From Terriglobus sp. RCC_193 (GTDB lineage: Bacteria; Acidobacteriota; Terriglobia; Terriglobales; Acidobacteriaceae), in contig NZ_JBFUPK010000001.1 of the NCBI RefSeq assembly GCF_041355105.1, positions 1,302,001 to 1,366,000 on the forward strand: DNA of 64,000 nt, read 5' to 3'. A program made the position numbers and the translations under genes. Positions 2,018-48,103 of this stretch are shown in pieces; within the stretch, counting starts at the first letter, position 1; the number at the start of each line of letters is the position of its first letter. The notes under the pieces are model-generated. The model worked only from the letters and a program-made list of their open reading frames with translations. It searched no databases and was not told the origin of the DNA.

Positions 2018-2025
2018 AAGCCGCC

Positions 2026-7657: not shown

Positions 7658-7752
7658 AGTGGAGTGTCACTCTTCAGCCGGTACAGAGCACCGTGCTCTT
7701 TTGGGCAGGTTGGCTCCGGCATACCATTTAAGCTGCGACCGAATCTGCCGTA

Positions 7753-22800: not shown

Positions 22801-25571
22801 TCAAAAAGCAAAGCGTGCCCCAAGCTCGATACGTCGGGCTGTCTCTGCCGATAGTGGTTGAGAGAACGTCGATGACGAGACCACCGTTCCAACTGCAGTG
22901 ACATTTGTGTGATTTAGTACATTGGCACTCCGTGCATTGAATGTAAGCGTACGTGGATGTTCCTTATCTTTCGGATTGAGCCTGAAAACGCGGGTCAGAT
23001 TCATATCGAGATGCACCCTGGCAGGCATCGTCCCCAAATTGCGAGAGACATCCCCGTTGACTGCGTTCGTGGTGAGAAGGCCGAAGCGGGTGGAGTAGAC
23101 GCCTGATCCGGGAGCTGAAGCATAGGAAGGACGGTCATTGAAGTTGCCATCGCCGTTCGCGTCTGTGCCGGTGGTGATGTTGTAGGGCTGACCGCTCAAA
23201 GCATCGAGTATCGCCGATAAATCTAATTTGTAGGGCAGATGAAGGCTTCCTGATGCATAAATCGAGTTCAGGCTTGTTCCATCCGACCTCGATGATTCTC
23301 CCGTTTCGCTGTAGCTCGATTGGGGAATGGAAATCGAATTACTCGTATTGGTTTTCAGGTTTACGTGAACGTAATACGCGGAGATACCGAAGAGTTTCCC
23401 GTTGTTATGGTCTACGCCAGCAACGAAGATTGTGCCTGAAAGATGACCTGAGTTTTGATATTGCAGAATATTTTCATTTGGTGCGATGGGACGGGGTGCG
23501 AGAAGAGCGGTGGTTGGATCTGGGGGTGTACCGATGCTGCTACCAACAAGAGGAGCATTGATGTTCTTGATGCGAAGACTTCCCCAGTTGTTTGCCCAAA
23601 AAAGAGTGGTTGCTGCGTGCCAACCGTGAGGAAAAGTGTGCTCAACACTGACATGGGTCTGGAGAGAAGAAAATTGATTAAGGGCTCGGGGGAACTGCTT
23701 TACCGTGCTGACTTGAATCGACCCGGAAACGGGCGTCAGAGGACTGGCGAAACTTGGAGAGTAAATAGTGAGTGATTGTTGACGGGCCCCATTGAGCCGA
23801 TAGACTTCCGTTGCGGCACTTTGAACGTTAGGGTCATGAAAGATTCCAGCCCTCAAGTGAACGACCCAAGTTGATTTCTTGTCCGGTGACCACGCAATGC
23901 CCAGGCGGGGCGAGAAATTGGCGAAGCTGCCGGGAGTCGTCTGAAGCTGATAGCGCAATCCGGTTGATAAGGATAAACGGGATGCGAGCTTGATGGCATC
24001 CTGCGCATACAGCGAGAGCCGCCATTGCGTAAGAGGCACTAATGGAGTGCCACTTGTGAGCTGATATGTTGTTGGAGATCCTCAGCGAGATTTAATAGGG
24101 CACGACGGTACTGCTCTATTGGACTGATGGTTGTCGTTTGACCGGTTGGATTGCCACCTGAGTCAAGCATCGGCGCGCTACCACCACCGAATATGTAAAC
24201 GCCATTGAACGTATCCGGATCATAATCGTGTACAAAAATACCAAGCGACTGAGCGCCGATTTTAAACGAGTGCGTTCCACGAGTAAGCATCACATCGTCG
24301 TCTATTTCAAGGTCTCGCTCTCGATTGTTCAAATTCTGGCTGGTGGATCCCCCTCCGGAAAAGTAACCAAGAACCTGTAGCGATGGGTCCAATGAATTCG
24401 GCGTTTGCGTTGTGCGCTTCCAGGTATAGCCAATTCGAGTCTCATGCAGAAGATTGGGACTCAATGTCAGCACATTGCTCAGTCGCAAATTGTATTCGCT
24501 TACGCTGCTTGAATAGCCAGCCTCTGCAAGTGTGAGGCCACCAACACCCTGATTGCCGAGGCTATTGTTATTTGCGGAGAACGAAAGTGTTCCAACGTCA
24601 TTCGGCGTGATCTGCCAGTCATTGCGAGCGGATGCGATCCAGAGTCTTTGTGGGGCAGCAACAGTCTGTTGTAACGCTATTTGGTTGTTGGCGGTGTCCA
24701 GGCCCTTTGCATTGACGACGCTGAATTCGTCGATATCTCGTTTCTCGAGAGCAAGTGCAAAACCACTCTTCTTCCGAACGACGGGACCATTGAGCTCAAA
24801 ACCGTAGCGACGCTTACCCGCCGGAGTTGCCGTGGTGGAGAATGGATTGGTTGAGTTAAAATTTCCATCGCTATCGGTGAAGAATAATGCTCCATGGAAC
24901 AAGTCAGCACCGGGTTTTGTAAGTATCTCGACACGTCCTCCGAGATAAGGCGCTCGCTCATATTCAGGTGAAAACATATCCGGATTGATGCGTATCGAAG
25001 TGATCGAATTCTTGGGCGGCAGTGCGCTTGCATTCTGAAAGCCATCAACCACAATGGTGGCCGATCCAGGCAAACCGCCCCCGCTGGCCGCGAGGGCCTG
25101 TAGCTGCCTCAGAAAATCGTCAGGATCGTCCGCAAGTTGCTGGACTTCCTGAGCCGTCATAGTGCGTGTGCCTACACCATGATCTGCATCCATCGCTGTG
25201 GCATCGTCTACAGCCTGTACATCTGTTTGAACTGCCGCAACTGCAAGCTGGACTCGAACGTGCGCATTTCCTCCGACTCGCTCGTCGACTTTAGTGACTC
25301 CTTGGGTGAACCCGTCCGCTTCCACAGTGATAGTGGCTGCCGTTATGGGAACACAAGGAAACAAAAAAGCGCCTGAGGTATCTGTAACGGTCTTTTGTCC
25401 GTCCGCTGCTTCCACTTGGGCGCCAGAAATCACTGCGCCAGTCGGATCCATGACTGTGCCTTCGATATGGATGCCAGATGTGCAGTGTTGTTGTGCGGGC
25501 ACCTGGATCGCATACAGCAATGCCGCAGATGCCACTGCGAGTTTCCAATCAATCCTGATGACAACTTTCAC
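22801..25571 (-). pseudogene. TonB-dependent receptor (Oar-like), broken by a frameshift
   Basis: Two overlapping minus-strand frames (24039-25571 and 22801-24039) make up one receptor that closely parallels the intact one at 30032-32791. The GTG at 25571 has GGAGG 7 bases upstream and a signal peptide ending in VPAQQ. The N-terminus is a carboxypeptidase-regulatory domain (IEGTVMDPTGAVISGAQV). The plug has the DDPDDFLRQLQALAASGGG motif, and the barrel ends in a C-terminal phenylalanine (ARFAF). Near 24075-24089 one base is missing: the first frame continues into a false QQHISSQVALH end, while shifting the frame restores SPTTYQLTSGTPLVPLTQW, matching VPTRYQISTGNPVVPFTRW of the intact copy. 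Either a real pseudogene or a sequencing error. Confidence 0.82.
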
Positions 25572-30031: not shown

Positions 30032-32791
30032 TCAAAATGAGAAGCGAGCGCCCATCTCAATACGTCGCGCAGGCTCCGCTTGATATGGCTTGTCCACGCT
30101 TGGAGACGAGATAACCGTTCCTACGCCATTTACATTCGTGTGGTTCAGGATGTTGGCGCTTCGTACATTGAACGTGAACGTCCGCAAATGATCTGTGTCC
30201 TTTGGATTCAGTACAAAAGCCCGGCTAAGGTTCATGTCCAGGTGCACCATCGGCGGCATCGTTCCTACATTTCGTGGCACGTTACCGTTCACAGTGTTCG
30301 CTGTCATCAGTCCATAGCGAGTGCTATATACCCCCGAGCCGGGTGCCGATGCATAGGATGGCCGGTCGTTGAGAATTCCGTCTCCGTTGCCATCCGTTCC
30401 AGTCGTAATGTTGTAGGAACTTCCCGAATATGTGCTGAATTGTCCCGATAGCTCCAGCTTCTCCGGGAGAACGACATTTGCGAATAGAGTCGCTCCATTG
30501 ATGTTCAACCAGTCGACGCGAGACGATTCGCCCTGTTCACTGTAGGACGATTGAGGGCTCACAATACCGTCGCCGCCATCTGCCTTGAAGATCATGTGCC
30601 GATAGCGTGCGTGTATTTGAAACCGCTTGTAGCTATTTTGTTCCAGCGCAATTGCAGCAACGTGCCCTGCAAGGTGGCCGGAGTTTTCAAAGCGCAGAAT
30701 ATCTTCATTACCACCATAGGGCCGTGGTGCATGCAGTGCCGCAGTGGGATCCACTGGAGTGCCAACGCTTGCGGCCACCATCGGCGCATTGATGTTGCGC
30801 ATGCGAACGGTGTTCCAATCCTCACCCCAGTAGAAGCTGGCACGGGCGAGCCATTGGTGGCCAAAACTATATTCGACGTTGCTGTCGGATGAAACTGTAA
30901 CTTTCTGTGAGAGCCCTGGCGCAAACTCGTACATGCTGGAAACAGCGATCGAATCTGCGGTTGGCACTAAAGGCGCGGTATAGTTTGGGGAATACACGGT
31001 CGTCTGCTGTTGACGAACTCCATTCAGGCGGAAGGCATTCGTCAGAGCGCTTGCCTCGTTAACATCCTGAAAGATGCCCGCACGCGTGTGGAAGACCCAC
31101 CTCGATCGTTTGTCTGCCGACCAGGCCAAGCTGATCCGAGGCTCAAAATTTGCAAAGCTGCTCGGGGCAGTTTGCATCTGGTAACGAAGACCGCCGGCTA
31201 TCGTGAGCCGAGGCGAAGCCTGCAGCGTCTCCTCCACATAAAGCGCTTCGTTCCATCTCGTAAATGGAACTACCGGGTTGCCGGTGCTGATTTGATACCG
31301 GGTGGGTACGCCTCCCGCCAAACCAAGCAACGTGCGACGATACTGCTCCATTCCATCAATCGTGATTGTCTGGCTTGTAGGCAAATTGTTGCTGTCAAGA
31401 ACTGGAGCTCCACCTCCACCAAAGAGCCATGCTCCATTGAACGTGTCAGGGGTGTAGTTTTGCGTAAAGGTAGCAAGTGCCTGTACACCCATCTTGAGAC
31501 TGCTTTTGCCCCTGGTCAGCAGTACATCGTGATCCACTTCAAGGTTGAAGCCATGGTTATTCAGGTTTTGGCTTGTTGCGCCGCCGCCGGTGAAGTAGCC
31601 CGATACCTGCAGTGAAGGCGTCGTGGAGTTCGGCGTGTTCTGTGTCCTCCACCAGGTAAGTCCCACCCTCGTCTGATGCAGTTGATTGGGGCCGACCGTC
31701 AATGCATTGGCAAAGCGTAGGTCATACTGACTTGTAAAGTTGGAATAGCCTGCTTCGGGCAGCACAAGTGCACTGACTCCCTGATTGCCAAGGCTGTTCA
31801 CATTCGCCGCAAAGGTTGTGGTTAGTGTGTCGGATTTGCCGAGTTGCCAACCGCTGCGGAGAGATCCCATCCATAGCCTCTGAGGTGTCGCAACTGTCTG
31901 CCGGAAAGGTGCAATCGTGTAGTCCGGCTGCAGTATCTGTGCATTTACTACCTTGAATTCGTCAATGTCACGCTTCTCCAGCGCCATGGAGAAATCTCCC
32001 TTGTTTGGCACAAGGGTTCCGCTTAACTCAAATCCATAACGACGTTTGCTCGCGGGCGTTGACGTGGGAGCGAACGCCGTCGTCGCATTCCAACTGCCCG
32101 AGCTTCCGGTGAAAAAGGTGGCTCCGTGCAACGAGGAAGCTCCCGGCTTCGTAACGATCTCAATCAATCCACGGCCATACGGTGGCCACCGGTACTCCGT
32201 GGAAAAGAGGTCAGGATTCACGTGAATCGAGGCGATCGATCCCTTTGGCGGAAGCACGGTCGCGCTCTGGAATCCGTCGACGGTGATCACTGCCGTAGTC
32301 GGATTGCCACCTGACTCGGAGGCCAACGCTTGAAGCTGCCGCAGGAAATCATCAGGATCATCCGCTAGCTGTTTGATCAGTTGCGAGTCGAGCACGACCG
32401 TGCCTGAGCCCCTGTCCGGATCGAGTGCCACCCGATCGTTCGCTGTCACCTGAACATCCGCCGACACCGAGGCGATGGAGAGCTTTATGTCAAGACGCAC
32501 CGGTCCGGCCTGCGAGACTGCGCGCCGAACCGTTGCTTCCGCGAAACCCTCTGCCTGAACATGCAGTACGAAAGACTTGGGCTGGCATGGAAGTACATAG
32601 TGCCCGGAAGCATCCGTGACCGATTTGTCACCTCCGGCTCCGGTAATGACAGCACCGACAACGCTCGCTCCAGATTGATCACTGACAGTACCGTCCACCC
32701 GCACACCATCTGCGCAGGTTTTTTGTGCTGAAGCCGCAGTAGCAAGCAGGATCGCAATTGTTGCAATCGGCAACCTCCACAAAACCCTCAT
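30032..32791 (-). CDS. TonB-dependent receptor (Oar-like), intact
   Basis: About 919 residues from the ATG at 32791, with GGAGG 10 bases upstream and a signal peptide MRVLWRLPIATIAILLATAASAQ; a further 27 codons upstream are open but lack such a signal. The N-terminal carboxypeptidase-regulatory domain has VRVDGTVSDQSGASVVGAV. The plug domain has DDPDDFLRQLQALASESGG and PTTAVITVDGF. The barrel ends in a C-terminal F (ARFSF). Such acidobacterial receptors are thought to import plant-derived oligosaccharides or siderophores, but the ligand is not readable from sequence. It leads the operon with a LytS kinase and LytTR regulator. It closely resembles the broken copy at 22801-25571. Confidence 0.9.
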   Translation of the reverse strand: MRVLWRLPIATIAILLATAASAQKTCADGVRVDGTVSDQSGASVVGAVITGAGGDKSVTDASGHYVLPCQPKSFVLHVQAEGFAEATVRRAVSQAGPVRLDIKLSIASVSADVQVTANDRVALDPDRGSGTVVLDSQLIKQLADDPDDFLRQLQALASESGGNPTTAVITVDGFQSATVLPPKGSIASIHVNPDLFSTEYRWPPYGRGLIEIVTKPGASSLHGATFFTGSSGSWNATTAFAPTSTPASKRRYGFELSGTLVPNKGDFSMALEKRDIDEFKVVNAQILQPDYTIAPFRQTVATPQRLWMGSLRSGWQLGKSDTLTTTFAANVNSLGNQGVSALVLPEAGYSNFTSQYDLRFANALTVGPNQLHQTRVGLTWWRTQNTPNSTTPSLQVSGYFTGGGATSQNLNNHGFNLEVDHDVLLTRGKSSLKMGVQALATFTQNYTPDTFNGAWLFGGGGAPVLDSNNLPTSQTITIDGMEQYRRTLLGLAGGVPTRYQISTGNPVVPFTRWNEALYVEETLQASPRLTIAGGLRYQMQTAPSSFANFEPRISLAWSADKRSRWVFHTRAGIFQDVNEASALTNAFRLNGVRQQQTTVYSPNYTAPLVPTADSIAVSSMYEFAPGLSQKVTVSSDSNVEYSFGHQWLARASFYWGEDWNTVRMRNINAPMVAASVGTPVDPTAALHAPRPYGGNEDILRFENSGHLAGHVAAIALEQNSYKRFQIHARYRHMIFKADGGDGIVSPQSSYSEQGESSRVDWLNINGATLFANVVLPEKLELSGQFSTYSGSSYNITTGTDGNGDGILNDRPSYASAPGSGVYSTRYGLMTANTVNGNVPRNVGTMPPMVHLDMNLSRAFVLNPKDTDHLRTFTFNVRSANILNHTNVNGVGTVISSPSVDKPYQAEPARRIEMGARFSF

Positions 32792-32994
32792 GAGACTCTT
32801 GCCTCCAATGAGGCAAGAGTCTTTGAGAACCTCCCAAAGCGCTAGTTGCTTGCAGGAAGAGCGGCGAAACATGCAGGTAACGCAACATGCTGCAGGCTGA
32901 GATAGCAGAAGCTAATTGCCAACGCCGCAACTTCCCATTTATCAAGACCATTTACTGGAGGAGTCAGAGGGCCAAAACATGTTCCGAAGCCCCG

Positions 32995-36639: not shown

Positions 36640-37251
36640 CTAAAACCGAGGATGAACCATCCCTCGCTGCAGTGACGATAAGTGCAGTTCAGCCGGGGTT
36701 GATTCGGAAGAGGCTGCTGTCGGCGGCGTTGGCGTACCCACCTGTGGCGTCTTCAGCAAGACGGACGTCGCTGGCGCAACGATCGGCCTAACAGACTCGC
36801 CTTCTAGCTTGAAATTCATAGTTACGTCATGGCTCCCATAGGCTGCACTCACAAACTTCTTTTCCGTTTCGACAGTACCGATCGTGACCCAAACGTGATA
36901 ATCGTGGCCAAGCGGGAGCCCACCGAAAAGATAGTTCCCGTTATCGTCGGCAAGCATCTGCCGCACCTGTGTGGTTCTCTCATCGCGAAGGAAAACGAGA
37001 GCCCGGCCAATGCCCGCGCTGTTCTTATCCCGGACATAGCCTTGCACGACACGTTGCGGCACACGATACGGCGCATAGTGGTCAATCCCGCCTCCGCGGA
37101 CCGTAACTACTGGCTTAAAGGGGGGAGGCGGCCCTAGCGGCATTCCTTGAGCCGCGCAATTGTTGGTCGAAGCCACAAGCAAGACGAGACCGGCAACCTC
37201 TAAGCCGCTCTTCAGAAGATTCCGCATCCCCAGTCTGACAACCTTTCCCAT
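36640..37251 (-). CDS. Exported carboxypeptidase-regulatory-like (Ig-type) protein
   Basis: About 203 residues from the ATG at 37251, preceded by GGAGGGA 5 bases away. A signal sequence with a LVLLVASTNNCAAQ end directs export. The middle (VVQGYVRDKNSAGIGRALVFLRDE ... LADDNGNYLFGGLPLGHDYHVWVTIG) is a CarboxypepD_reg-like beta-sandwich; the flanks are proline-rich. Such domains act as binding or scaffold modules, not enzymes. An array of three 10-bp-spaced half-sites (37333-37357) stands about 80-105 bp upstream, placing the gene in the proposed regulon of the 51648-52415 regulator. Confidence 0.7.
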   Translation of the reverse strand: MGKVVRLGMRNLLKSGLEVAGLVLLVASTNNCAAQGMPLGPPPPFKPVVTVRGGGIDHYAPYRVPQRVVQGYVRDKNSAGIGRALVFLRDERTTQVRQMLADDNGNYLFGGLPLGHDYHVWVTIGTVETEKKFVSAAYGSHDVTMNFKLEGESVRPIVAPATSVLLKTPQVGTPTPPTAASSESTPAELHLSSLQRGMVHPRF

Positions 37252-37332
37252 CCTGTTCCCTCCATCACACGAGAAGAGAACTTCTCGTCCATAGCGCTGA
37301 TACAAGAAGAGTCGAAAACAGAATTGGGTGCG

Positions 37333-37357
37333 GTCACGTTTTGTAACGATTAGTCAC
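37333..37357 (-). promoter_or_regulatory. Regulon motif site 1
   Basis: Three half-sites at exact 10-bp steps on the plus strand: GTCAC at 37333, GTAAC at 37343, GTCAC at 37353. Read toward the minus-strand gene at 37251 it is GTGACTAATCGTTAC followed by another GTGAC. Candidate operator for an OmpR-type regulator. Confidence 0.6.
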
Positions 37358-37671
37358 TGATGGGTTGGCAGCGATGGGATATCACGAGCGTGATCGAGTC
37401 ACCATGACAGGCCCGTCTGCAACAACCCGCTCGGGGATATCCACGAGCAGCTATGGCTACATTTACCGGGTAGGCTCTGGTCCGTGTCGGCCGGTACTCT
37501 TAGTTGCTGGAGCTTCTGTACCTGACCAATCTTTATAACGATGCGCTCGCACATCCAAGTTCGGTGTATCCCGTGATGACACCGACATTACGCAGGCCAC
37601 AATCGTATTGGATGTCCTTACGCGATACCCGTCCCCAGCGCGCCGAGATTGCTGAGATTTGTTCCTTATAC
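37358..37671. other. Intergenic stretch with no supported gene
   Basis: About 310 bp between motif site 1 and the stop of the ketopantoate-reductase gene. I see no coding signal, repeat or clear terminator. Confidence 0.4.
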
Positions 37672-38688
37672 TTAATCGCTTGTTCGCAGAACTTGTCCTA
37701 GAAGCACGTCTCCCGGAGCGACCTGACCGCACGTGATCGCATGGACCGTTCCAACGATGGCGGCGTTCGCGGGGGTGCGGACGCCGCATTGCCTGGCGAC
37801 ATCTACAACGTACCCATTGATGAAGTCGATTTCGGTGACATGCCCACGCTCAATGTCCTGTGACATCGATGGTTTCGCGTCGCCGTATCCTTGGACTATT
37901 TGATCAAGCCAGCGGTTATGCGCTTCGCTAGGGACACTGCGACCGCGCCATGCAGGTGGTATCGGATCCACGATCATCCGTTCCGGTTGTGCGCCGTTCG
38001 CAAGAGCCACGGACAGGGCCTCATCGTATATCCGGTCAAAGAGTTCGCGGCCGACTGACGAGCTAATGTACTCTCGCATCGGCCTGCCTGTAATCGCACC
38101 GATTGTAGTTACGGAGCAGTTCAAAAGGAGCTTTGACCAGATGGAACCTGTCAGATTCGGAGATGTACGCACCTCGATTGCTCGACCGAGCTCTTCACCA
38201 ACCCTTTCGGTACGCTCGCTTCTGCCACCGGCAAGTTCGCCAATCAACAGATGTCCGGCATTCCTTTGTTCATAGACACCAGGTTCGACCATCGTCGCGC
38301 CGAGATTTGAGATGCCGCCAAGTACCTTATTTACGCCGAAGCGATCCGCAAGCATCCGCGCGACCCCACCGTTCTGTATCGGCAACAAAACTCCACTGGG
38401 CACGAGCAAGGGCATCAAGACTGGGGCGATATTCAAGGCATCCTGTGCTTTCGTGGCGAGCACGATCAGATGAAATTTACTCCCTTTTCGATAGTTCGTA
38501 ATCGGGGCAACGTCTACCGCGGCCACCTGTACGTCTCCTCCGATCCCGGAGACGCGCAGCCCTGATTCTCGCAGTGCTTCTGCGGATTCGGCACTACGAG
38601 TCGCCAGGCAAACATCGATTCCCCGATCGATTGCACGCGCTGCAATCGTCCCACCCAACGCTCCGATGCCCACGATCAATATCTTCAT
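37672..38688 (-). CDS. panE: Ketopantoate reductase family (PanE/ApbA) protein
   Basis: 338 residues from the ATG at 38688, which has AAGGAGG 6 bases upstream. NADPH-binding Rossmann start MKILIVGIGALGGTIAARA. The substrate-site lysine is in LATKAQD, and the mid motif LPIQNGG matches the PanE NG element. The C-terminal domain has SIWSKLLLNCSVTTIGAITG, with the catalytic-type lysine in WSKLL and asparagine in LLNC. Reduces 2-dehydropantoate to pantoate in coenzyme A synthesis, though many paralogues act on other 2-oxo acids. No other pantothenate gene is near, so the symbol is by family. Confidence 0.75.
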   Translation of the reverse strand: MKILIVGIGALGGTIAARAIDRGIDVCLATRSAESAEALRESGLRVSGIGGDVQVAAVDVAPITNYRKGSKFHLIVLATKAQDALNIAPVLMPLLVPSGVLLPIQNGGVARMLADRFGVNKVLGGISNLGATMVEPGVYEQRNAGHLLIGELAGGRSERTERVGEELGRAIEVRTSPNLTGSIWSKLLLNCSVTTIGAITGRPMREYISSSVGRELFDRIYDEALSVALANGAQPERMIVDPIPPAWRGRSVPSEAHNRWLDQIVQGYGDAKPSMSQDIERGHVTEIDFINGYVVDVARQCGVRTPANAAIVGTVHAITCGQVAPGDVLLGQVLRTSD

Positions 38689-38809
38689 TTCAACCTCCTT
38701 ACGGCTCGTCGTAAAGCCCAACTTCTGGAACCGCAATCTTATCGAGCCCACTTGCAACAAATCGATGGTGAGGAATGTGAAGGAACAGCGCAATTGCGCC
38801 CGCCACGGC

Positions 38810-39505
38810 TCATCCTCCCTTGTTGCGGTCTCGGAATGGGATCAGTCGGCCATCCAAAATGCTTGTCGTTCGTTTCACCATGGCTGTGAAGGCAGACACC
38901 AATTCCATGTCGAGGCGTGTTCGTTTCCCGGCCATTCGCTCGAGGGCATCATCCCTTCGCATCGGCTCAGCATATGGCCGCACCTCGGTCATCGCGGCAA
39001 AAACATCGCAGATGGTAACAAGGCGTACCGATACAGGGATCTCTGTTGCCCTAAGACTCCGCGGATATCCGCTTCCGTCGAGCCGCTCGTGATGATCTCG
39101 CACGACTGCCAAAACCGTTCGATTAGTTTCCCCATCTTTTCGTAGCATTTCGTAGCCGAGTCGCGGGTGAGATTGCATCATTTCAATCTCAGAAGGAGTC
39201 AGTAAAGAAGGCTTGTTGAGAATGGGGAGAGGGATTTCTATCTTTCCGATATCGTGCAACAAACCGGCCAGTGCCAGCGTGCGTTGTTCGATTACGTGCT
39301 GCCCGAGGAATGCAGAGAACGACGCGCTTAATCCGGACACAAAGAGGCTGTGACGAAGCAGTGCGGGGTCATATGAAGCCAAACGTCGCATCCAATAATT
39401 GTTGGGAAGAGACTCCACGACGCTAAGAGGGGACACACTCGCATCCTCCACTACAAGGCAGAACATATCTTGCGAGGACTCATCCCCATGATCTAGTCGC
39501 TTCAT
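38810..39505 (-). CDS. HD-GYP domain protein (probable cyclic-di-GMP phosphodiesterase)
   Basis: About 231 residues. HD motif LLHDIGKIEIP and the GYP-type motif DHHERLDGSGYP are intact, followed by VRLVTICDVFAAMTEVRPY. These are the metal and substrate positions of HD-GYP phosphodiesterases that break down cyclic-di-GMP. There is no receiver or sensor domain, only a short helical N-terminus. The start is uncertain: the ATG at 39505 has GGGAGG only one base away, a GTG three codons earlier has no clear site. Copy A of a 169-bp repeat with motif site 2 lies about 190-360 bp upstream. Confidence 0.78.
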   Translation of the reverse strand: MKRLDHGDESSQDMFCLVVEDASVSPLSVVESLPNNYWMRRLASYDPALLRHSLFVSGLSASFSAFLGQHVIEQRTLALAGLLHDIGKIEIPLPILNKPSLLTPSEIEMMQSHPRLGYEMLRKDGETNRTVLAVVRDHHERLDGSGYPRSLRATEIPVSVRLVTICDVFAAMTEVRPYAEPMRRDDALERMAGKRTRLDMELVSAFTAMVKRTTSILDGRLIPFRDRNKGG

Positions 39506-39693
39506 ACCTCCCACACTTCGGTTGCATTTCTTAGATCGAGATCATCAACGGGTATGTTTGATGATCTCGAGAGCGAACGGCTGGTTGGTCTTTTTGCCGC
39601 TTTTACTCTGAGAGAAAAGGGGGATGTACAGGAAACATTTACCAAGTTGGCTCTGTTCCATACGGGATTCTCGGTGCCGCGTATCGCCTTTTC

Positions 39694-39862
39694 TGAGACC
39701 ACGAAATCAGTGTTTCAGTACGACGAACCAGTGAGGCAAGGGTCAGCACGAGCAACTACATCAAGAAGACAGCAGCCCTCATGTCACCACGGTCACAATT
39801 TGTAACGATTGGTCACTTTGGATTTTTAGCAAGCAGATTAGGTGAGCCCGCAGCACCTCGGC
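39694..39862. repeat. Direct repeat copy A (about 169 bp)
   Basis: About 90% identical by eye to 45275-45442, same orientation, 5.58 kb apart. It contains the operator-like motif array and, read leftwards, an ATG with MRAAVFL codons interrupted by a stop and then LLVLTLASL, which looks like a decayed signal peptide. The two copies bracket the TIGR03435 and lanthipeptide genes. Confidence 0.75.
39783..39816 (-). promoter_or_regulatory. Regulon motif site 2 (in repeat A)
   Basis: GTCAC at 39783 and 39792, GTAAC at 39802, GTCAC at 39812: near-perfect 10-bp spacing. Oriented toward the minus-strand HD-GYP gene, whose start is about 280 bp away. Confidence 0.5.
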
Positions 39863-39877
39863 GCCAAGACAGAGCTA

Positions 39878-40060
39878 CTACAAGTAATCGTGTCCATCAA
39901 CCACATTGAATTCCGCTGATTCTTCGGCAAACTCATGCAATAAGTAGGCGTGGCCAACGCCGAATAGCGTGAAGATGCGATCGCCCGGCTCTGCAATACG
40001 TCGCAGGTTTTCTATGATGTTCAGATTTCCCGTATACCAGCTACCTACCCAGTTGGCGCC
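39878..40060 (-). pseudogene. C-terminal fragment of a DUF5694-like protein
   Basis: 61 codons without a start (a TAG precedes it directly). The residues include WYTGNLNIIENLRRIAEPGDRIF followed by FGVGHAYLLHEF and a DYL end, the closing pattern of DUF5694/TraB-like proteins. Only the tail survives, next to repeat copy A, which suggests the repeat junction replaced the rest. Confidence 0.5.
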
Positions 40061-40286
40061 TTCCTATTTCGTTTTTTAGAAGGGCTGAACACTCTGTCAG
40101 CTCAACAGCAGTTTTGCTGAACAGCCTTCCGAGGGCCGGTTCCCGATCCGAAAAGGAGTTCTCGGGTTTCACATGGCGTGGCGTTCGCTTGTTAGATCAG
40201 AGTTCCCCAGAGACAACGCAGTTCGCCGCACCGTGTGCCAGAGGGGCTATCGTTTTCGTTTGGACAAAGGGACTAGATGCGTTCGT

Positions 40287-41462
40287 CTAGTTGTCACTCG
40301 GCTTTTCGACATGGTCGATGACCATGACGTCGACGGTGGCCCTCGCCGCATCCAGCTTCAGGCCGATTTGCTCTTGAATCGCCGTATAGATAGGGGGAGG
40401 AGCGTCCGGTGAATCATCGGGGATGATCTTTACGCCGAAGGCAGTAAACTGAGTCTCATCCGGCGTCCATTTCAAAAGACCATCAAACCGCCCCTGTAGA
40501 TGGGTGCGATCCACGACCGGCCGATCAAAGACGCCTGCCTGCATCCAATGCGCGAAACCGTCCATGGTGATGTTTCGAAAGGTGAGATGACCGAGCTTCG
40601 TGAAGTTGAAGCTGCTTATCGTTTTGTTATCAGCGCTGCTCTCCACCATTTTCGGACCACCCTTGGCTACAGTCAAAACGTATGCCGACATTTCCTTTTT
40701 GTCTGTGTGGTACTTCAACGCAAAGCGACTTTCCAATAGTTTGCGCATGATTCCTCGCAACTGAGCCTCGCTGGGTGTGCCGGGGAGATCTGGCGTAGCG
40801 GCAACATCAAAGCGATCGGACTCCGCCCACGAGGGTGCCCCAACAATCTGTTTGCTGTGGACGTTGTAAGCAAACATCATCAGATCGCTCAACGTCGTGT
40901 TTTGCGTACGCAGCTTCCCCCCGTTGCCACTCAACCACTTGCCCTGTACGTTTGGGTCACTCAGCTTAACGGTGGCAACCTCGAAATTTGGGTCGGCATT
41001 GGGATCCATCGACGCTTGGGATGCTCGCGGCTTCGGAATCGACCAAGCGGTGTCGGGCGTAGTTTTTAGCAGAATCAGTGGCGTCGTCTGGTCGCCCTGC
41101 TTCCAATCGCCGATGAAACTGCTTCCATCTTCGGAAATCCTTCCCCTAAAAGTGCTATCAATTGCATCCACCTCAAGCCAGAGTGCTCCGGACTGGAACG
41201 TGGTTTTCTTGATGGTGATAGGTTGGTCCCCCTGATCGATCATAAAAATTACCGAACGGAGTGTGCCATCTGGCATTTTCGTGATCTTTACTACAGCCCT
41301 ACGATCCCTGTCCCCGTGTAAAGTCCCCTGCCATGTCCCTTCGATATTGGCTATCACCGCGACGGCTTTTGAAGTTACGGACTGGGCCTGGACGAAAGTA
41401 ATCGTCCGCGCACTTAACAGGAATGCAATCACTAACTTCCCGCCTACGGATCTGAATGGCAT
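40287..41462 (-). CDS. TIGR03435-family exported protein
   Basis: About 391 residues from the ATG at 41462, which has GAGGT upstream and a signal peptide (GGKLVIAFLLSARTITFVQAQ). The first 130 residues are a beta-rich domain beginning IEGTWQGTLHG. The rest is the TIGR03435 domain (FEVATVKLSDP, LMMFAYNVHSKQIVGAPSWAESDRFDVAATPD, LRGIMRKLLESRFALKYH, VFDRPVVDRTHLQGRFDGLLKWTPDE, VMVIDHVEKPS). The family is expanded in soil Acidobacteria; function unknown. It lies downstream of lanKC on the same strand with about 200 bp between. Confidence 0.83.
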   Translation of the reverse strand: MPFRSVGGKLVIAFLLSARTITFVQAQSVTSKAVAVIANIEGTWQGTLHGDRDRRAVVKITKMPDGTLRSVIFMIDQGDQPITIKKTTFQSGALWLEVDAIDSTFRGRISEDGSSFIGDWKQGDQTTPLILLKTTPDTAWSIPKPRASQASMDPNADPNFEVATVKLSDPNVQGKWLSGNGGKLRTQNTTLSDLMMFAYNVHSKQIVGAPSWAESDRFDVAATPDLPGTPSEAQLRGIMRKLLESRFALKYHTDKKEMSAYVLTVAKGGPKMVESSADNKTISSFNFTKLGHLTFRNITMDGFAHWMQAGVFDRPVVDRTHLQGRFDGLLKWTPDETQFTAFGVKIIPDDSPDAPPPIYTAIQEQIGLKLDAARATVDVMVIDHVEKPSDN

Positions 41463-41663
41463 ACCGACCTCGCTATTGGATAACATCCTAATTTTTAGTT
41501 GAACCGCAGGCGGAGATGAGCCCAAAGCACTAGTTACATGCAATCCCTTAATAGATTTCGTCGGAGTTATGACCCCTTGGAGTTCAAGAGAATACGTTTT
41601 CCCTGACGTGGCTAAATAGACTTGTACACGCGAAAGCGTTTCTCGAAGTTCCGCGGTAGAAGC

Positions 41664-44324
41664 CTAGACGTCCCTCTTCATATCAACCAACACTTCTGGG
41701 TCTGAGAAGAAGTCTGCTGGCTGGAACCATTTGTACCTGTATAACGTGCGCATTACCCCAGCCACTCCTGTCGCGTAATCACAGGATACCCGGAACAATC
41801 CCTCCCCCGGTACGGTCCTCATGCCGGATCTAGGTATCAGGTAGAGGTCGTTAAGACCGCAAAGCGGGCGGCGCGCCATCTCCAGATACTTCCGATCCTT
41901 AGAAAGGAGATATGCATCTGTGAGCGCGTCTACAAAGCTGCCGAGGCCAAAGAAGAGACCGCTTGAGACTGCATATTTGCGATGGACGTCCTTGAGAATT
42001 CGATCGGATATATCCCACATGCCATAGCGCATAGCGACCTTGACGATTCCGGCGCTGCCTTCTTCTATATACGGTACAGCGGTATGCTCCCCGGTTCCCC
42101 GGGGGAAGGTCACAATGCCTGTCTCGCGTTCCACGGCCTGGGCGAGATCATAGGCTAATGCCTTCTCGCCGGCTGACCGATACTTGGATTCCCCTGTCCT
42201 TTCGTAAGCACGTAACAGGAACAAGGCCACCCCACTCTGACCGTACCCTAACCCAACATGGATATTGGACCCGTTTTGCCAGAAGACGCCCTCCCGATCA
42301 ATGATCGCCGTGTCGATTAGCTGATCGGCTATCGCAACTGCGCTACGGAGATAGTCATCCCGTTCGTACCTCTGATGCATGTAGAGATTGGCCATTCCAA
42401 TTCCAGCCATACCGTACAAAAGGCTATGGTGCGCTGATCTCATTGGGCTATTGTTTGCGACCTCCATTAACTGGATCGCTGCATCGTGCTCGCCGAGTGT
42501 TGCAAGGCACCACGCAATACCCGCTGCCCCGGTGAGCAATCCTGGGGCAATGTTCGATACCGATAGTGTGTCGCACTTATCCCTTAACCAATCAATTCCC
42601 GCCGATGGGATGTCCACATCACAACTCGTCAAGGCGTAAAGCACACCAGCGGCACCAAATCCGAGTCCGAGACTATTTGTCCGATATGCAAAGGGGTCTG
42701 CCGGGAAAAGACTCGCCTCATTCGTGTTTAGGTGCGCAAGGAGGAAGTCACCGAGCCCCTTGATCGCCTCGTCAATGTCGAACTCAGCAGGTTGTGCGGA
42801 GAGAGGACAGCTGACCGGCGTGGAGGACTCTTCAAGAAGAATTCGTGCCTCCTGGAGTGTCATCGAATTCGCTGCCAACCCGCTTATGATCGGGTAGAGA
42901 TTGGTGTTCTCCCACCCGATGTCGCGCAACATCACAGAGAGACACCCGGAGAATAGATCCTCACGCAGGCTAGCCGCGGCGGCGATTGGGAACATTAGAT
43001 AAAGCATGATTGCCGCGACGCTATAAAGATCGTCGTACATCTCTGCAGCCATGAGTTCCGGCGCAGATCTTCGAAAGCCCGGCGTGTAAAGTTCGATAGG
43101 CGTGTCGGTGCCCGGCCTGTAGGCACCATCAAAGTCCAATAGACTTACCTGGAACGTGGACGGGTTGACCTTGATGTTATTAGCCGAGAGATCGCCAAAG
43201 ATGATGCCGGCAGCGTGAACTGAGCTCAATGCATCAATGAGGCTCATTGCTATCGTTCTATAGTCATCGAAATACCGGCTGCTCGAATTCCGGGTTGGGT
43301 ATACCTGCAGCAGGGGGCTCCTACTAAGCATGATTGAACGGAGATCGACTCCTCCGAGATATTCTTCAACGAGAAATGAGTTCTCCCAACTTTGAAAGAA
43401 GTCGTAAGGTTCGGGCGCGATCCGGGCCGGCCTCAGCACCTCCAGTAGTTCCATTTCTCTTCTTAGAAGTGCAGGCGCATCCGTTTCCGTCCCATACATG
43501 AGTGTGTACGGGCGGGCCTCCTTGATGATCACGGTTCGTGAGCTTTGACAATCATCCGCGAGATACACGCCGCCCGAATTGGAAAACGCGAGGGCCTCTA
43601 TAACTCGATAGCGGTCATTCAGCAGTACATCCTCAGCTTCGTCGCTCTCTTCTTGAGCAAAAGGATCATCCACCCAAGGAGGAAGGCTGAAGTATGGCTG
43701 CCTAATGTCTGCCACAAGCTCCCCACCCGGTGTCGGAATTACAGGAGTGCGAAGCCCCGTATACTCAAGCCTACTCGTTGGCCAGATGCCACCAAAACGA
43801 TAGTAGAGCACCCTACAGTCCTTATAGCGACGATCCGAAAGGATGAAGGGACCTTTCTCTTTTCGAAGTACAGAGTAGAGAGCTTCGAGGATCTCGAAAC
43901 ATTCATCAACATTCTGTGGATACACGGTCATGAACTTCCCTGATCCGCCGCGCGCCCATAGTTTATGGGTCATCATCGTGAGAACTTGGCGATCCAAGGC
44001 AAATTTGAAGGGTATATCGCGCGGAAGAAGGACGTCGCAAACGTTTCCGAGGATACGTTGGTCGTTCCAGACACTTGCTGAAACGTGAACCTTCCAGCCA
44101 CTCTGCGGCAGTTGAACTTCTTGCAGGGCGTTGTGGCACCAAAGGCCGTCACGAACGAGCGTGGCGGCCTTATCGAACTCCCTTTGTTTTGCCGCAACCA
44201 GCGAAGTGTAAATTTCACTCGGCCGATACTTCTCTTCTAGGGCCTCATAAAATGTGGGACTCGTTAAGGTGTAAGTAATCTTGTTATCGTGCCGGATGTC
44301 GCGCAAGAACGTAACATTGCCCAT
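41664..44324 (-). CDS. lanKC: Class III lanthipeptide synthetase LanKC
   Basis: 886 residues that phosphorylate, dehydrate and cyclise a Ser/Cys-rich peptide. Residues 1-220 are the lyase-type N-terminal domain (FKFALD, KLWARGGSGKFMTVYP). Residues about 235-520 form a protein kinase: IIKEARPY carries the ATP lysine, GIIFGDLSANNIKV is the catalytic loop, and LLDFDGA replaces DFG. The C-terminal 340 residues are a LanC-like cyclase toroid: GLGFGAAGVLYAL, GLLTGAAGIAWCL, LLYGMAGIGMANL, GLGYGQSGVALFLL, SGLFFGLGSF. The WCxG and CHG zinc ligands of class I, II and IV cyclases are absent, which fits class III rather than LanL. The ATG at 44324 has GGAAAG 6 bases upstream. Three precursor genes precede it on the same strand. 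Confidence 0.9.
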   Translation of the reverse strand: MGNVTFLRDIRHDNKITYTLTSPTFYEALEEKYRPSEIYTSLVAAKQREFDKAATLVRDGLWCHNALQEVQLPQSGWKVHVSASVWNDQRILGNVCDVLLPRDIPFKFALDRQVLTMMTHKLWARGGSGKFMTVYPQNVDECFEILEALYSVLRKEKGPFILSDRRYKDCRVLYYRFGGIWPTSRLEYTGLRTPVIPTPGGELVADIRQPYFSLPPWVDDPFAQEESDEAEDVLLNDRYRVIEALAFSNSGGVYLADDCQSSRTVIIKEARPYTLMYGTETDAPALLRREMELLEVLRPARIAPEPYDFFQSWENSFLVEEYLGGVDLRSIMLSRSPLLQVYPTRNSSSRYFDDYRTIAMSLIDALSSVHAAGIIFGDLSANNIKVNPSTFQVSLLDFDGAYRPGTDTPIELYTPGFRRSAPELMAAEMYDDLYSVAAIMLYLMFPIAAAASLREDLFSGCLSVMLRDIGWENTNLYPIISGLAANSMTLQEARILLEESSTPVSCPLSAQPAEFDIDEAIKGLGDFLLAHLNTNEASLFPADPFAYRTNSLGLGFGAAGVLYALTSCDVDIPSAGIDWLRDKCDTLSVSNIAPGLLTGAAGIAWCLATLGEHDAAIQLMEVANNSPMRSAHHSLLYGMAGIGMANLYMHQRYERDDYLRSAVAIADQLIDTAIIDREGVFWQNGSNIHVGLGYGQSGVALFLLRAYERTGESKYRSAGEKALAYDLAQAVERETGIVTFPRGTGEHTAVPYIEEGSAGIVKVAMRYGMWDISDRILKDVHRKYAVSSGLFFGLGSFVDALTDAYLLSKDRKYLEMARRPLCGLNDLYLIPRSGMRTVPGEGLFRVSCDYATGVAGVMRTLYRYKWFQPADFFSDPEVLVDMKRDV

Positions 44325-44544
44325 TATTTCTTTCCATTGGTTTGCTGTCAGACCGGCGGTCGCTGATTGCTGACAATATGGGTGCGCAGTCAGCTCTGGA
44401 GTGGCATTTTACTAAGATGGCGTCTCGGAGCACCCATTGTGTGGGCGGACCGATCGGACGTCTCATAGGTTGAGATGGATGGAACTCCTAAGCGCGAGAG
44501 CGGTGTATGAATGGGAGTTACACGGGCTAAGTATCTTATTGTCA

Positions 44545-44585
44545 TTCCGGAGCCGATAGACAAAACTGACTACCCGACTCCGGAA
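44545..44585 (-). terminator. Stem-loop between the precursor genes and lanKC
   Basis: Left arm TTCCGGAGCCGATAG (44545-44559) pairs with CTACCCGACTCCGGAA (44570-44585), with one mismatch and one small internal loop; the loop is ACAAAACTGA. It begins 13 bp after the stop of the first-listed precursor and about 220 bp before lanKC. There is no T-run, so partial termination or RNA processing that favours precursor over enzyme is the likely role. Confidence 0.5.
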
Positions 44586-44597
44586 CGATATTGAGAA

Positions 44598-44699
44598 CTA
44601 ACCAGTACAGCAGAAGAACCAACTGCTGCTGCAGCTACTGCCGCTATCGTCTTCGTTCTTGGATAAACCAAGTTTCTGAAGGGAGAGAACCTTTTGCAT
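44598..44699 (-). CDS. lanA: Class III lanthipeptide precursor A1
   Basis: 33-residue peptide starting at the ATG 44699 with AAAGGAG 6 bases upstream. The leader begins M-Q-K-VLSLQKL, carrying the class III LLxLQ-type recognition motif, followed by an acidic NEDD. The core is SSCSSSWFFCC with a TG end. Within it Ser-x-x-Ser followed by 3-5 residues and Cys gives the labionin pattern, and the paired cysteines at the end leave one free for a disulfide. It is the precursor nearest to lanKC and the most divergent of the three. Confidence 0.82.
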   Translation of the reverse strand: MQKVLSLQKLGLSKNEDDSGSSCSSSWFFCCTG

Positions 44700-44766
44700 T
44701 TGAGCTCCTTTGATCGTTGGGTTTGTCACCAAGGAATGTCCGAATGGACCGGTTGGCACGACGGAC

Positions 44767-44868
44767 CTAGGTGCAGCAAACAAACCAGCTACTACTACAG
44801 CTGTTGCCCGGATCGTCTTCGTTCTTCGTTTTGACTGGGAGCTTCTGAAGTAAGAGAACGTTCTGCAT
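44767..44868 (-). CDS. lanA: Class III lanthipeptide precursor A2
   Basis: 33-residue peptide starting at the ATG 44868 with AGGAGG 4 bases upstream. The leader motif is VLLLQKL, then a lysine-rich VKTK and NEDDPG. The core is SCSSSWFVCC followed by a single T. It differs from A3 by a few residues only, while its codons differ more often at silent positions, for example in the serine run, which argues that the peptide is kept by selection. Confidence 0.82.
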   Translation of the reverse strand: MQNVLLLQKLPVKTKNEDDPGNSCSSSWFVCCT

Positions 44869-44945
44869 ATGACCTCCTCTTTCAATGTTCGGATTTGATG
44901 TTTCGGCTGTGGACACAACGATCGTCAAGATCGCTTCGTGGGGGA

Positions 44946-45050
44946 TTAGCCTGCGCAGCAAACGAACCAGCTGCTGCTGCAGCTATTGCCGGGATCATCT
45001 TCATTCTTCGTTTTGAGTGGGAGCTTCTGTAGTGAGAGAACATTCTGCAT
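44946..45050 (-). CDS. lanA: Class III lanthipeptide precursor A3
   Basis: 34-residue peptide starting at the ATG 45050 with GGAGG 5 bases upstream. Leader VLSLQKL, then LKTK and NEDDPGN. The core is SCSSSWFVCC with an AG end: Ser23, Cys24, Ser25-27, Trp28, Cys31, Cys32. Ser23-x-x-Ser26 with Cys31 or Cys32 could form a labionin; Cys24 and the remaining cysteine could form a disulfide. It is the first gene of the minus-strand operon A3-A2-A1-lanKC. Confidence 0.82.
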   Translation of the reverse strand: MQNVLSLQKLPLKTKNEDDPGNSCSSSWFVCCAG

Positions 45051-45180
45051 ATGGACCTCCTTTCTGAAAATGGCGCAAAGACGCTTGGGAACCCAGGGGA
45101 CCGTCTCTATAGAGAAGGCGACTATGACCGCAAGAAGCGGTGGATGAGTTGGTTCCTCAATGCACTAATGTCTTTTAGTG

Positions 45181-45240
45181 ATTCGAACTACATGTGCTTT
45201 AAGCTTCGAATAACTTGTATTCGCAGATGAGTGATCACTC
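45181..45240 (-). promoter_or_regulatory. Palindromes in the lanA promoter region
   Basis: ATTCGAA (45181-45187) and TTCGAAT (45205-45211) form an inverted repeat, and GAGTGATCACTC (45229-45240) is a perfect 12-bp palindrome. All lie 130-190 bp upstream of precursor A3. They are candidate operators for the lanthipeptide operon; no specific regulator can be named. Confidence 0.4.
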
Positions 45241-45274
45241 TCTAAAACCAGAGACATGCCAGGCATCAGGATGT

Positions 45275-45442
45275 TGAGAGCACGAGATCAGTGTTTCAGT
45301 TCGACGAACCAGTGAGACAAGGGGAAACACAGCAACTAGTTCAAGAAGACAGCAGCCCTCATGTCACCACAGTCACAATTTGTAACGATTGGTCACTTTG
45401 GGTTTCCAGAAAGCAGATTAGGTGAGCCCGCAGCATCTCGGC
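45275..45442. repeat. Direct repeat copy B (about 168 bp)
   Basis: Second copy of the 39694-39862 repeat, about 90% identical by eye with one single-base indel. Contains motif site 3 and the same MRAAVFL beginning on the minus strand, here also closed by a stop. Confidence 0.75.
45363..45396 (-). promoter_or_regulatory. Regulon motif site 3 (in repeat B)
   Basis: GTCAC at 45363 and 45372, GTAAC at 45382, GTCAC at 45392. Oriented leftwards, toward the lanthipeptide precursors, whose first start codon is about 315-330 bp away; it could drive that operon through a long leader, or a short decayed gene. Confidence 0.5.
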
Positions 45443-45635
45443 AGCCCGCCGGAGGACTTTCGACTGGTAACGTCGGCCCTGGTCAACACATCGCTCGGTG
45501 GTTATGGCCGAATGGAGCAATGAATACAGTGCCCATCGAGTTGATCTTTGCCATCCGTCCTCTTCGCCGAAGCCGGGCACGAGGTCGCCTTTCTCGCATC
45601 CAATAGCCCGGCTCCGTGTGTATGTAACGAGCTCG

Positions 45636-45650
45636 ATGACCAATCGTTAC
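45636..45650 (+). promoter_or_regulatory. Regulon motif site 4
   Basis: ATGACCAATCGTTAC, one mismatch from the consensus GTGACCAATCGTTAC, on the plus strand toward the first secretin gene (start 45734, 84 bp away). A TATTTT about 25 bp downstream could be a -10 element. Confidence 0.55.
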
Positions 45651-45733
45651 AAAGCGGACCGCGCCAGCCTATTTTTAGAACGTCTATCGCATTGAGCTGC
45701 TGCACCTCTGGCACACATTCGATTCAACGCGAT

Positions 45734-48103
45734 ATGACCTTCAAGACAACACGATTACTTCTCTACTGGATGCTAGGTGCCGCGATGTGCCTCTCCTTAT
45801 GTTCCCACGCTCAATCGGCAGCAAAATGGGACAAGCGTGGCCGCGAGGCAGAACTGCGTGCTGATTTTGACGCATCATTTGAGGCCTATCGTCAGGCCCA
45901 CCTCTTGAAGCCGAAGGATCTTCGCTATCAAACTCGCTATGAGAGGATGCGCTTTCAGGCGGCGAATGCGCATCTGGATCGTGGACGAGTATTGCGTCAA
46001 TCTGGAGACCTGGGAGGGGCTATGACCGAGTTCTCTCGGGCGCTACAAATCGATAGGGGAAACCAATCGGCGGCGCAAGAACTTCTTGCATCGCAAAATC
46101 CTGCGGGCGGTATCCACGGATCGAAAGCAGAGGGACTGACTGGATTAGCATCTCTGACCACGCACCAGAAGCGAGTGCGGCGGGAGATAGACTCGTTGGA
46201 TAGTCCGGTAGATCTCAAGCCCATCTCGAACGAGCCCATTACGCTGCACATGGTCGAGGACACCAAAATCATCTATCAGGCGATTGGCAAGATCGCGGGG
46301 CTCAATGTCATCTTCGACTCCGACTACAACTCAAAACGGATCCCCATCGACCTCAGCAACGTGTCTCTTCCTAGCGCGTTGCGTATCGTCGGCAAGATAG
46401 CCGGAACATTCTGGTCTCCGCTGACGGACAACACGATCTTTGTTGCGCAAAACAATCGTGCGAAACATACCGACATCGACGATCTGGCCGTCGAGACCTT
46501 CTATCTCACGAATATGTCGCAGCAGAATGATGCAAACGAAGTGCTCACTGCCCTGAGAAATCTGCTGGACCCAAGTACCAAGCTTTACCTCTTAGCATCA
46601 CAGAACGCTATCGTTGTTCGTGCGACGCCAGCCGAGCTCATCTTAGTTGAAAAGTTAATCGAAGACTTCGACCGCACGCGCTCGGAAGTGGTCGTGGACG
46701 TCGCTGTTCTTGAGGTAAGCCGCGATCTTGAGCGTAATCTTGGCATCACTTTGCCTACGAGTTTCAGCGTATCCGCGCAGACAAGCAATGCGAATCAGTC
46801 CAGCTCCTCCTCCTCATCCAGTTCGTCCAGCAGCAGCAGCTCAACATCCGGTATCACCCTGAATACGCTCGCGAACATGAATGGAACCAATTTCGCGGTT
46901 ACCCTAAGCAGTGCCACGGTGAATGCCCTGCTTTCGGACTCCGACACGCGAGTGCTCCAGAACCCACGCGTCCGCGCAACGGACGGTCAGCAGGCAACCC
47001 TCAAGATCGGTTCTAAGATACCTGTCGCGACTGGTTCAACCACATCGACGCTCACATCAACCGCAACCTCTACGACGCAGTTCACTTATGTAGACGTAGG
47101 CGTCAACATCGACATGACACCGACAGTGCACCTTGACCGCGAGGTGTCGCTGAAGATGAAAATCGAGGTATCATCGCAGACAGGCACGAGCACCATTGAT
47201 GGTGTCGCCGAGCCCATCATCTCGCAGCGCGTGGTGCAGCAGGTTATCCAACTCAAGGACGGCGAGCCGTCGATATTAGCCGGGCTTCTATCGCAGTCGG
47301 ACACGAAGAGTGTCAGCGGTACGCCGGGTCTTGGCGAAATTCCATTTCTGAAGTATTTCTTCAGCAGCCAAGACAAAAAACAATCGAGTGATGAGATCGT
47401 CTTTCTTCTGATCCCGCACATTGTTCGGGAATCCCTGCTCACGGATGCGAACACAAGAGTGATCGATAGCGGTACCAGCCAAGGCATCGAGCTCCGACGC
47501 AAGAACCCTAACGAGAAGATCGCCACCAACGAGGACCTTGACGAGGAGGGACCCACCGAGCTTGCAGGCGCGCAATCAACATCGGCAGCGAATGCTGCAT
47601 CCGCGATGATCGGCCAACTCGCTGCGCAAGCTCGTCCACTCAAGCCGCGGTCTGATGAGATGGCTGCAGCAAACCCAAAGTCCAGCGGAGTTCCCATCGC
47701 GTTCAGTGTTGTTCCTTCCGCCGTGACTCAATCTATTGGTTCGACCTTTCAAGTAGCCGTGATAGCTTCCCACGCCGTGGATCTATCCAGTGCTCCATTT
47801 CAATTGAATCTGGATCCCAAGGTTCTTTCGCTCGTCAGCGTGAATGCGGGAGAGTTGTTGGGCCGAGATGGCCAACCTGCAGCCTTGATGCAACGTGATG
47901 ACGGGAAAGGCGGCATCTCGATCTCTCTGACCCGGCCCCCGAATACTCCCGGGATCACAGGCGACGGAAGCGTCGTCATACTGACTCTCAAGGCCATTGC
48001 TCCAGGAGATTCGACGTTAACCTTGACGAGATTGGGCGCCAGTGACAGCAAACAAGTCAGCCTGCCCGTTGTCGGAACGCAGGCAGCAGTACATGTTCAG
48101 TAG
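45734..48103 (+). CDS. Secretin (GspD/PilQ-like) with TPR start and cohesin-like end
   Basis: About 789 residues from the ATG at 45734, where the signal peptide (TRLLLYWMLGAAMCLSLCSHAQ) begins; 62 upstream codons are open but featureless. Tetratricopeptide-like helices (residues 30-110) come first, then an STN/N0 domain (NVIFDSDYNSKRIPIDLSNV), N1-N2 domains, and a serine-rich linker. The secretin domain follows (VLQNPRVRATDGQQATLKIGSKIPV, VGVNIDMTPTVH, EIPFLKYFFSS, VFLLIPHIV). The last 130 residues form a cohesin-like beta-domain (FSVVPSAVTQSIGSTFQVAV). Forms an outer-membrane pore. It overlaps the next secretin gene by 11 bp. No other T2SS or type IV pilus gene is nearby. Confidence 0.85.
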   Translation: MTFKTTRLLLYWMLGAAMCLSLCSHAQSAAKWDKRGREAELRADFDASFEAYRQAHLLKPKDLRYQTRYERMRFQAANAHLDRGRVLRQSGDLGGAMTEFSRALQIDRGNQSAAQELLASQNPAGGIHGSKAEGLTGLASLTTHQKRVRREIDSLDSPVDLKPISNEPITLHMVEDTKIIYQAIGKIAGLNVIFDSDYNSKRIPIDLSNVSLPSALRIVGKIAGTFWSPLTDNTIFVAQNNRAKHTDIDDLAVETFYLTNMSQQNDANEVLTALRNLLDPSTKLYLLASQNAIVVRATPAELILVEKLIEDFDRTRSEVVVDVAVLEVSRDLERNLGITLPTSFSVSAQTSNANQSSSSSSSSSSSSSSSTSGITLNTLANMNGTNFAVTLSSATVNALLSDSDTRVLQNPRVRATDGQQATLKIGSKIPVATGSTTSTLTSTATSTTQFTYVDVGVNIDMTPTVHLDREVSLKMKIEVSSQTGTSTIDGVAEPIISQRVVQQVIQLKDGEPSILAGLLSQSDTKSVSGTPGLGEIPFLKYFFSSQDKKQSSDEIVFLLIPHIVRESLLTDANTRVIDSGTSQGIELRRKNPNEKIATNEDLDEEGPTELAGAQSTSAANAASAMIGQLAAQARPLKPRSDEMAAANPKSSGVPIAFSVVPSAVTQSIGSTFQVAVIASHAVDLSSAPFQLNLDPKVLSLVSVNAGELLGRDGQPAALMQRDDGKGGISISLTRPPNTPGITGDGSVVILTLKAIAPGDSTLTLTRLGASDSKQVSLPVVGTQAAVHVQ

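Follow-up and report, generated by a model that had tools for sequence, protein, structure and literature searches.

Known class III systems and the Terriglobus locus

Labyrinthopeptins carry labionin rings together with a disulfide. Among class III systems with structures in the PDB, the closest to the synthetase described here is ThurKC/ThurA from Bacillus thuringiensis (PDB 8sam, 8sao and 8sap; PMC10604976). Most class III synthetases (LanKC) in one large survey were from Actinobacteria and Firmicutes (PMC7268733); in the class Terriglobia, a class IV lanthipeptide region was reported by antiSMASH for the acidobacterium Edaphobacter paludis (PMC11354219). A class III enzyme of an acidobacterium is already known: AciKC from a coral acidobacterium (host Ca. 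class UBA6911) was expressed in E. coli and dehydrates the precursors AciA1-A2, with seven dehydrations described (PMC13083261). The precursor family NF038160 ("class III lanthipeptide", lanthi_III_c) has also been modelled by NCBI. Here, a stretch of 64,000 nucleotides from Terriglobus sp. RCC_193 (contig NZ_JBFUPK010000001.1, positions 1,302,001 to 1,366,000; "the window") was analysed with respect to a LanKC gene and three small precursor genes (P1, P2 and P3).

The locus looks like a compact acquired class III operon, in which a LanKC with intact lyase and kinase catalytic residues at the positions tested is accompanied by three co-directional precursor genes (Table 1). As judged from the sequence, it is predicted with a probability of about 0.85 to be a class III operon whose peptide product is modified. 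Like AciKC/AciA1-A2, as far as the published description allows the comparison (PMC13083261), it combines a class III enzyme of an acidobacterium with precursors in a cluster, but the AciA precursors are glycine-rich and carry an S/TX2-(SX2)5 motif. A first-pass annotation of the window had regarded the acidobacterial host as unlike the well-known actinobacterial cases, which AciKC makes less novel than supposed.

Table 1. Positions (numbered from the first nucleotide of the window) of the operon and of the features bracketing it
Feature	Position	Strand	Details
Precursor P1	44946-45050	-	34 aa, MQNVLSLQKLPLKTKNEDDPGNSCSSSWFVCCAG; NF038160 32.7 bits
Precursor P2	44767-44868	-	33 aa, MQNVLLLQKLPVKTKNEDDPGNSCSSSWFVCCT; NF038160 28.7 bits
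Precursor P3	44598-44699	-	33 aa, MQKVLSLQKLGLSKNEDDSGSSCSSSWFFCCTG; NF038160 20.2 bits; leader/core type as in P1 and P2
LanKC, class III lanthionine synthetase	41664-44324	-	ATG start, 886 aa, single uninterrupted frame
TIGR03435/DUF3738 protein	40287-41543	-	TIGR03435 199 bits (cut-off 40); PF12543; downstream of LanKC, inside the repeats
Direct repeat, left copy, ~165 bp	39694-39862		91% identical to right copy
Direct repeat, right copy, ~165 bp	45275-45442		With the left copy brackets the TIGR03435 gene, LanKC and the precursors

Synthetase and precursor genes

The LanKC protein, encoded by the only LanKC gene of the genome, scored 682 bits against NF038151 (cut-off 575), and the domains RamC_N (lyase), Pkinase and a partial LANC_like were detected by Pfam, in agreement with the lyase-kinase-LanC-like architecture of the first-pass annotation. 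Assignment to class IV (LanL) was rejected, the score on the class IV model being 451 bits, under the cut-off of 650. The best PDB match by sequence was ThurKC (phmmer, E 5e-75), with which the domain order and the leader type are shared. A structural model of LanKC (m18d6bcc0e28e, built from 12 sequences; mean predicted local distance difference test (pLDDT) 76.7, predicted template modelling score 0.72) had ThurKC (8sam) as its best PDB fold match (template modelling score 0.66-0.69; ~25% identity over the fold alignment), followed by CuvL, SalKC and PneKC, so that the classes are not separated by fold alone. All eight lyase residues listed for ThurKC in PMC10604976 (K65, H67, K94, K108, K117, D152, R163 and R191) were conserved in LanKC, as were the four kinase catalytic positions (Lys, Asp, Asn and Asp).

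The cyclase zinc ligands Cys284, Cys330 and His331 of NisC correspond, as given in the ThurKC paper (PMC10604976), to Ser726, Phe770 and Asp771 of ThurKC, respectively. Glu754, Phe791 and Phe792 were found at the ligand positions of the window LanKC in the phmmer alignment to ThurKC; the cyclase is thus without zinc ligands, like that of ThurKC and as had been proposed. The pocket is different from that of ThurKC, in which S726, D771 and D667 stand in place of E754, F792 and Y694 of LanKC. The structural model, being of low confidence at residues 742-758 (pLDDT <50), does not place the Glu754 site.

The precursors lie upstream of LanKC on the same strand, with 273 nt between the end of P3 and the LanKC start, and the short lengths, ribosome sites, leaders and cores given in the first-pass annotation were all recovered. 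By direct reading, the Shine-Dalgarno sequences AAAGGAGG, AGAGGAGG and AAAGGAG are placed 4-5 nt ahead of the ATG of the precursor genes. The leader motif is VLSLQKL in P1 and P3 and VLLLQKL in P2, and the core is SCSSSWFVCC in P1 and P2 and SCSSSWFFCC in P3. P1 and P2 (the latter scanned with one additional leading residue) scored above the NF038160 cut-off of 27 bits. The NF038160 matches of the genome were confined to the locus (P1 and P2, P3 weakly), and in a scan of 396 genomes of the phylum, 30 of which matched at E <=0.1, scores above the cut-off were obtained only in the Terriglobus genome studied. The codon differences between P1 and P2 were 10 synonymous and 3 nonsynonymous (nonsynonymous rate dN 0.051, synonymous rate dS 0.974), and those between P1 and P3 were 11 and 7, respectively (dN 0.136, dS saturated). 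The 100 nt 5' of each precursor had just 26-32% ungapped identity between the genes. No Rfam family was found at gathering score at 39000-46000.

The SCSSSW codons of the three genes (44620-44637, 44786-44803 and 44968-44985, minus strand) can fold into a hairpin of 7 pairs with a T-rich stretch after it, which was scored as terminator-like three times inside the core codons, and G-U pairs preserve the hairpin in P2. These hairpins are possibly a by-product of the AGC/TGC codons.

Related synthetases, core conservation and ring plan

No relative was found when the genome contigs were scanned with the single LanKC protein; when an alignment of the window LanKC with three other LanKCs of the phylum was used, at least 536 relatives were obtained, and the best 80 of them were taken. 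Among the matches listed, the closest (42-45% identity) were from Duganella, an oxalobacterium, Janthinobacterium, Massilia, Stenotrophomonas, two Sphingomonas and an ignavibacterium, followed by the LanKC of Rhizocola with 36% identity to the window LanKC. Small open reading frames (ORFs) with LxLQ leaders and SSxxxCC cores adjoin the LanKC genes at these nine loci (L068, L070-L075 and L080 from Oxalobacteraceae, Stenotrophomonas, Sphingomonas and Rhizocola; L069 from the ignavibacterium), and among the 83 fetched loci scanned such precursors were present only in these nine, besides one spurious ORF in L101. Four of six relatives' precursors scanned against NF038160 passed the cut-off; that of Massilia scored 18.2 bits and the ignavibacterial one had no match.

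In an 82-row LanKC tree, constructed by a quick method with the Shimodaira-Hasegawa-like approximate likelihood ratio test (SH-aLRT) as the only support, the window LanKC and the nine relatives formed one side of a branch with support of 94 (just below the 95 mark), and the window LanKC was sister to seven proteobacterial rows (SH-aLRT 95). The SSxxxCC trait, a label assigned after the precursors had been seen, changed once on this tree versus 9.6 times in shuffles. Further LanKCs of the phylum (L065-L067, L084, L086, L092, L105 and L111) were placed elsewhere. The operon links an acidobacterium with a LanKC clade of mostly Gram-negative hosts and short, dense cores, with which it shares the LxLQ leader, the Sx2SSx3CC core and LanKC identities of 36-45%. 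Three of the phylum's other class III operons, L065, L066 and L067, have three, five and two tandem precursors, respectively, with different cores, and by reading an ABC-type (ATP-binding cassette) transporter gene follows each LanKC.

For core conservation, 21 precursors of the window and the nine relatives were compared as 16 distinct cores, numbered from the first position of Sx2SSx3CC. Common to all 16 was S-S-x3-C-C, with S4, S5, C9 and C10 each in 16/16; S1 was present in 15/16, T/S3 in 14/16 and C2 in 8/16. The invariance of Ser4, Ser5, Cys9 and Cys10 points to these as ring positions. The variable loop is aromatic in the window cores (WFV/WFF) and consists mostly of polar or small residues in the relatives. 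Two thioethers may be the conserved ring plan of the Sx2SSx3CC cores, an arrangement to which we give somewhat less than even odds.

The precursors had been called labyrinthopeptin-like, and it was proposed that each core could form one labionin plus a Cys24 disulfide; the labionin would then join Ser23 and Ser26 to one of the C-terminal Cys, and Cys24 would pair with the other. The LxLQ leader and the vicinal CC are indeed common to both, the loose labionin motif S-x2-S-x2-5-C occurs in 3/3 window precursors, and Cys24 is present in all three. The stricter published motif, which bars an internal Cys (PMC11251773), occurs in 0/3, and the position of Cys24 (core Cys2) is Cys in just 8 of the 16 cores, whereas both C-terminal Cys are found in 16/16; the Cys24 disulfide is hence not a family feature. 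As a stand-in for the labyrinthopeptin synthetase (the tree is without LabKC), the LanKC of locus L141, which adjoins labyrinthopeptin-type precursors, was used; it is just 30% identical to the window LanKC and separated from it by a fully supported branch. Because of this tree position and the Sx2SSx3CC core type of the operon's own clade, kinship with labyrinthopeptins was rejected, and a product of that kind is unlikely. What survives of the earlier proposal, as far as sequence can tell, is that a labionin may form in the window peptides and that a Cys2-Cys10 disulfide may form in the eight cores with Cys2, all window cores included, although it cannot be general. The two precursors of L141 (Actinomadura flavalba) lie downstream of its LanKC at 7400-7900 of that locus and have WECC cores ending in CGC or NCC.

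In the class III operon as we read it, LanKC would bind the VLxLQKL leader helix at the kinase lobe, phosphorylate core serines with a nucleoside triphosphate, eliminate the phosphate to give dehydroalanine and then add the Cys thiols. The conserved rings would most likely lie at Ser4, Ser5, Cys9 and Cys10: Cys9 would be added onto Ser4, as a labionin with Ser1 or as a plain lanthionine, and Cys10 would be added onto Ser5 or engaged in a disulfide, with Cys2 as an optional extra. The S726 position of ThurKC is Glu in 10/10 clade members and the D771 position is Phe/Tyr in 10/10; as the ThurKC variants D771A and D667A lost labionin (PMC10604976), the clade must run the chemistry differently or form lanthionine.

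A more speculative reading would make Sx2SSx3CC peptides a family with a class III ring topology not yet described, in which neighbouring Ser-Ser and Cys-Cys pairs would give two thioether bridges that interlock, with the acidic residues of the cyclase pocket replaced, and the acidobacterial version a transporter-less cassette between direct repeats. The bridges, a doubtful assignment, would be Ser4-Cys9 or a labionin Ser1-Ser4-Cys9, overlapping Ser5-Cys10. It is conceivable, though a bold supposition, that the acidic residues replaced are those which ThurKC needs for labionin.

In the portions of the class III lanthipeptide literature searched, no solved product was found for cores of the Sx2SSx3CC clade, and the ThurKC paper (PMC10604976) describes the determinant of labionin formation as still open. 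The clade is a natural contrast to ThurKC in the enzyme pocket (E754/F792/Y694) and in the core, which with ten residues should be easily mapped. The ring pattern of the window peptides is testable, and the predicted ring plan is the interesting part of the finding.

Probable acquisition, export and remaining explanations

The operon was likely acquired. LanKC was present in 1 of 19 genomes of the genus, and the LanKC family scored above the cut-off in 3 of the 396 phylum genomes, the Terriglobus genome studied included. The flanking secretin genes and CarboxypepD_reg gene are 8.6 kb apart in the window and collinear at 0.5-0.9 kb in the two relatives compared (G399 and G397), from which the extra stretch (37200-45800) is absent. 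Its ORFs of >=120 aa encode a ketopantoate reductase-like protein, an HD-domain protein, the TIGR03435 protein and LanKC, with no transposase or integrase of that length among them. No copy of the ~165-bp repeat beyond these two was found in the genome, nor any in the 18 other genus genomes. The copies, on the minus strand, are ~180-230 bp upstream of the HD-domain gene and of P1; since the repeat stands ahead of both genes, an alternative is that an upstream region was duplicated. The GC (guanine-cytosine) content was 0.49-0.55 throughout, with no island signal, and a search for the TIGR03435 neighbour on plasmids gave no match; a link of this protein to the peptide is unproven. The best match of the HD-domain gene in the 18 other genus genomes was 53% identical.

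Several results weigh against a functional peptide pathway. P3 falls below the NF038160 cut-off, and the codon differences between P2 and P3 were 9 synonymous and 9 nonsynonymous (dN 0.188, dS saturated). The promoter scan gave one promoter-like site, a chance-level result (1 observed versus 0.9 expected), and the site is not ahead of P1 but just ahead of LanKC. An ORF of one ABC-transporter cluster, whose L068 member was checked against Pfam, was found downstream of LanKC in 9/9 relatives, in eight directly after it and in L073 ~1.8 kb on; no ABC exporter gene was found near the window LanKC, which is followed by the TIGR03435 gene, and the best-scoring genome match to the relatives' exporter was just 21% identical. 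With no linked exporter and so distant a match, the pathway may be incomplete, and leader removal and export would rely on unlinked host genes. With Asp771 and Asp667 of ThurKC replaced by Phe792 and Tyr694, the ring chemistry cannot be read across from ThurKC. Expression of the operon and modification of its peptides are predictions from sequence.

These exporter results, together with the presence of the operon in a single genus genome, are what would be expected of a decaying operon, acquired without exporter and protease, whose peptide is unexported or unexpressed. Such decay is improbable in view of the intact frame and catalytic residues of LanKC, the three precursor frames kept and the small number of nonsynonymous differences that separate P1 from P2; moreover, unlinked proteases are described as usual for class III, M16B pairs outside the cluster processing bacinapeptins and paenithopeptins (PMC8960859), and two M16 peptidase genes are available in the genome for possible leader removal. 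That P1-P3 are no more than chance frames by an orphan synthetase is next to impossible and was rejected by the shuffle test and the P1-P2 codon differences: although small-ORF calls need care, 55% of class III precursors being unannotated in one survey (PMC7268733), SSxxxCC was found in the window in 3 of 33 small ORFs in which an LxLQ-like leader is followed by a Cys, namely P1-P3 only, and in none of 20 dinucleotide shuffles of the window, P1 and P2 match NF038160 with dN far below dS, and the nearest relatives of LanKC are accompanied by the same core.

The window starts in a conjugation-type region, as indicated by a TraD-like gene (by reading) and a MobF relaxase at 11-4773, the relaxase being nearest (51-64%) to those of plasmids of Granulicella tundricola and Acidisarcina, which agrees with an acidobacterial host. 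Two similar receptor-like genes, each adjoining a sensor/regulator pair by reading, are located at 22801-25571 and 30032-32872; one is a single frame of 946 aa and the other is split into two frames of 412 and 510 aa.

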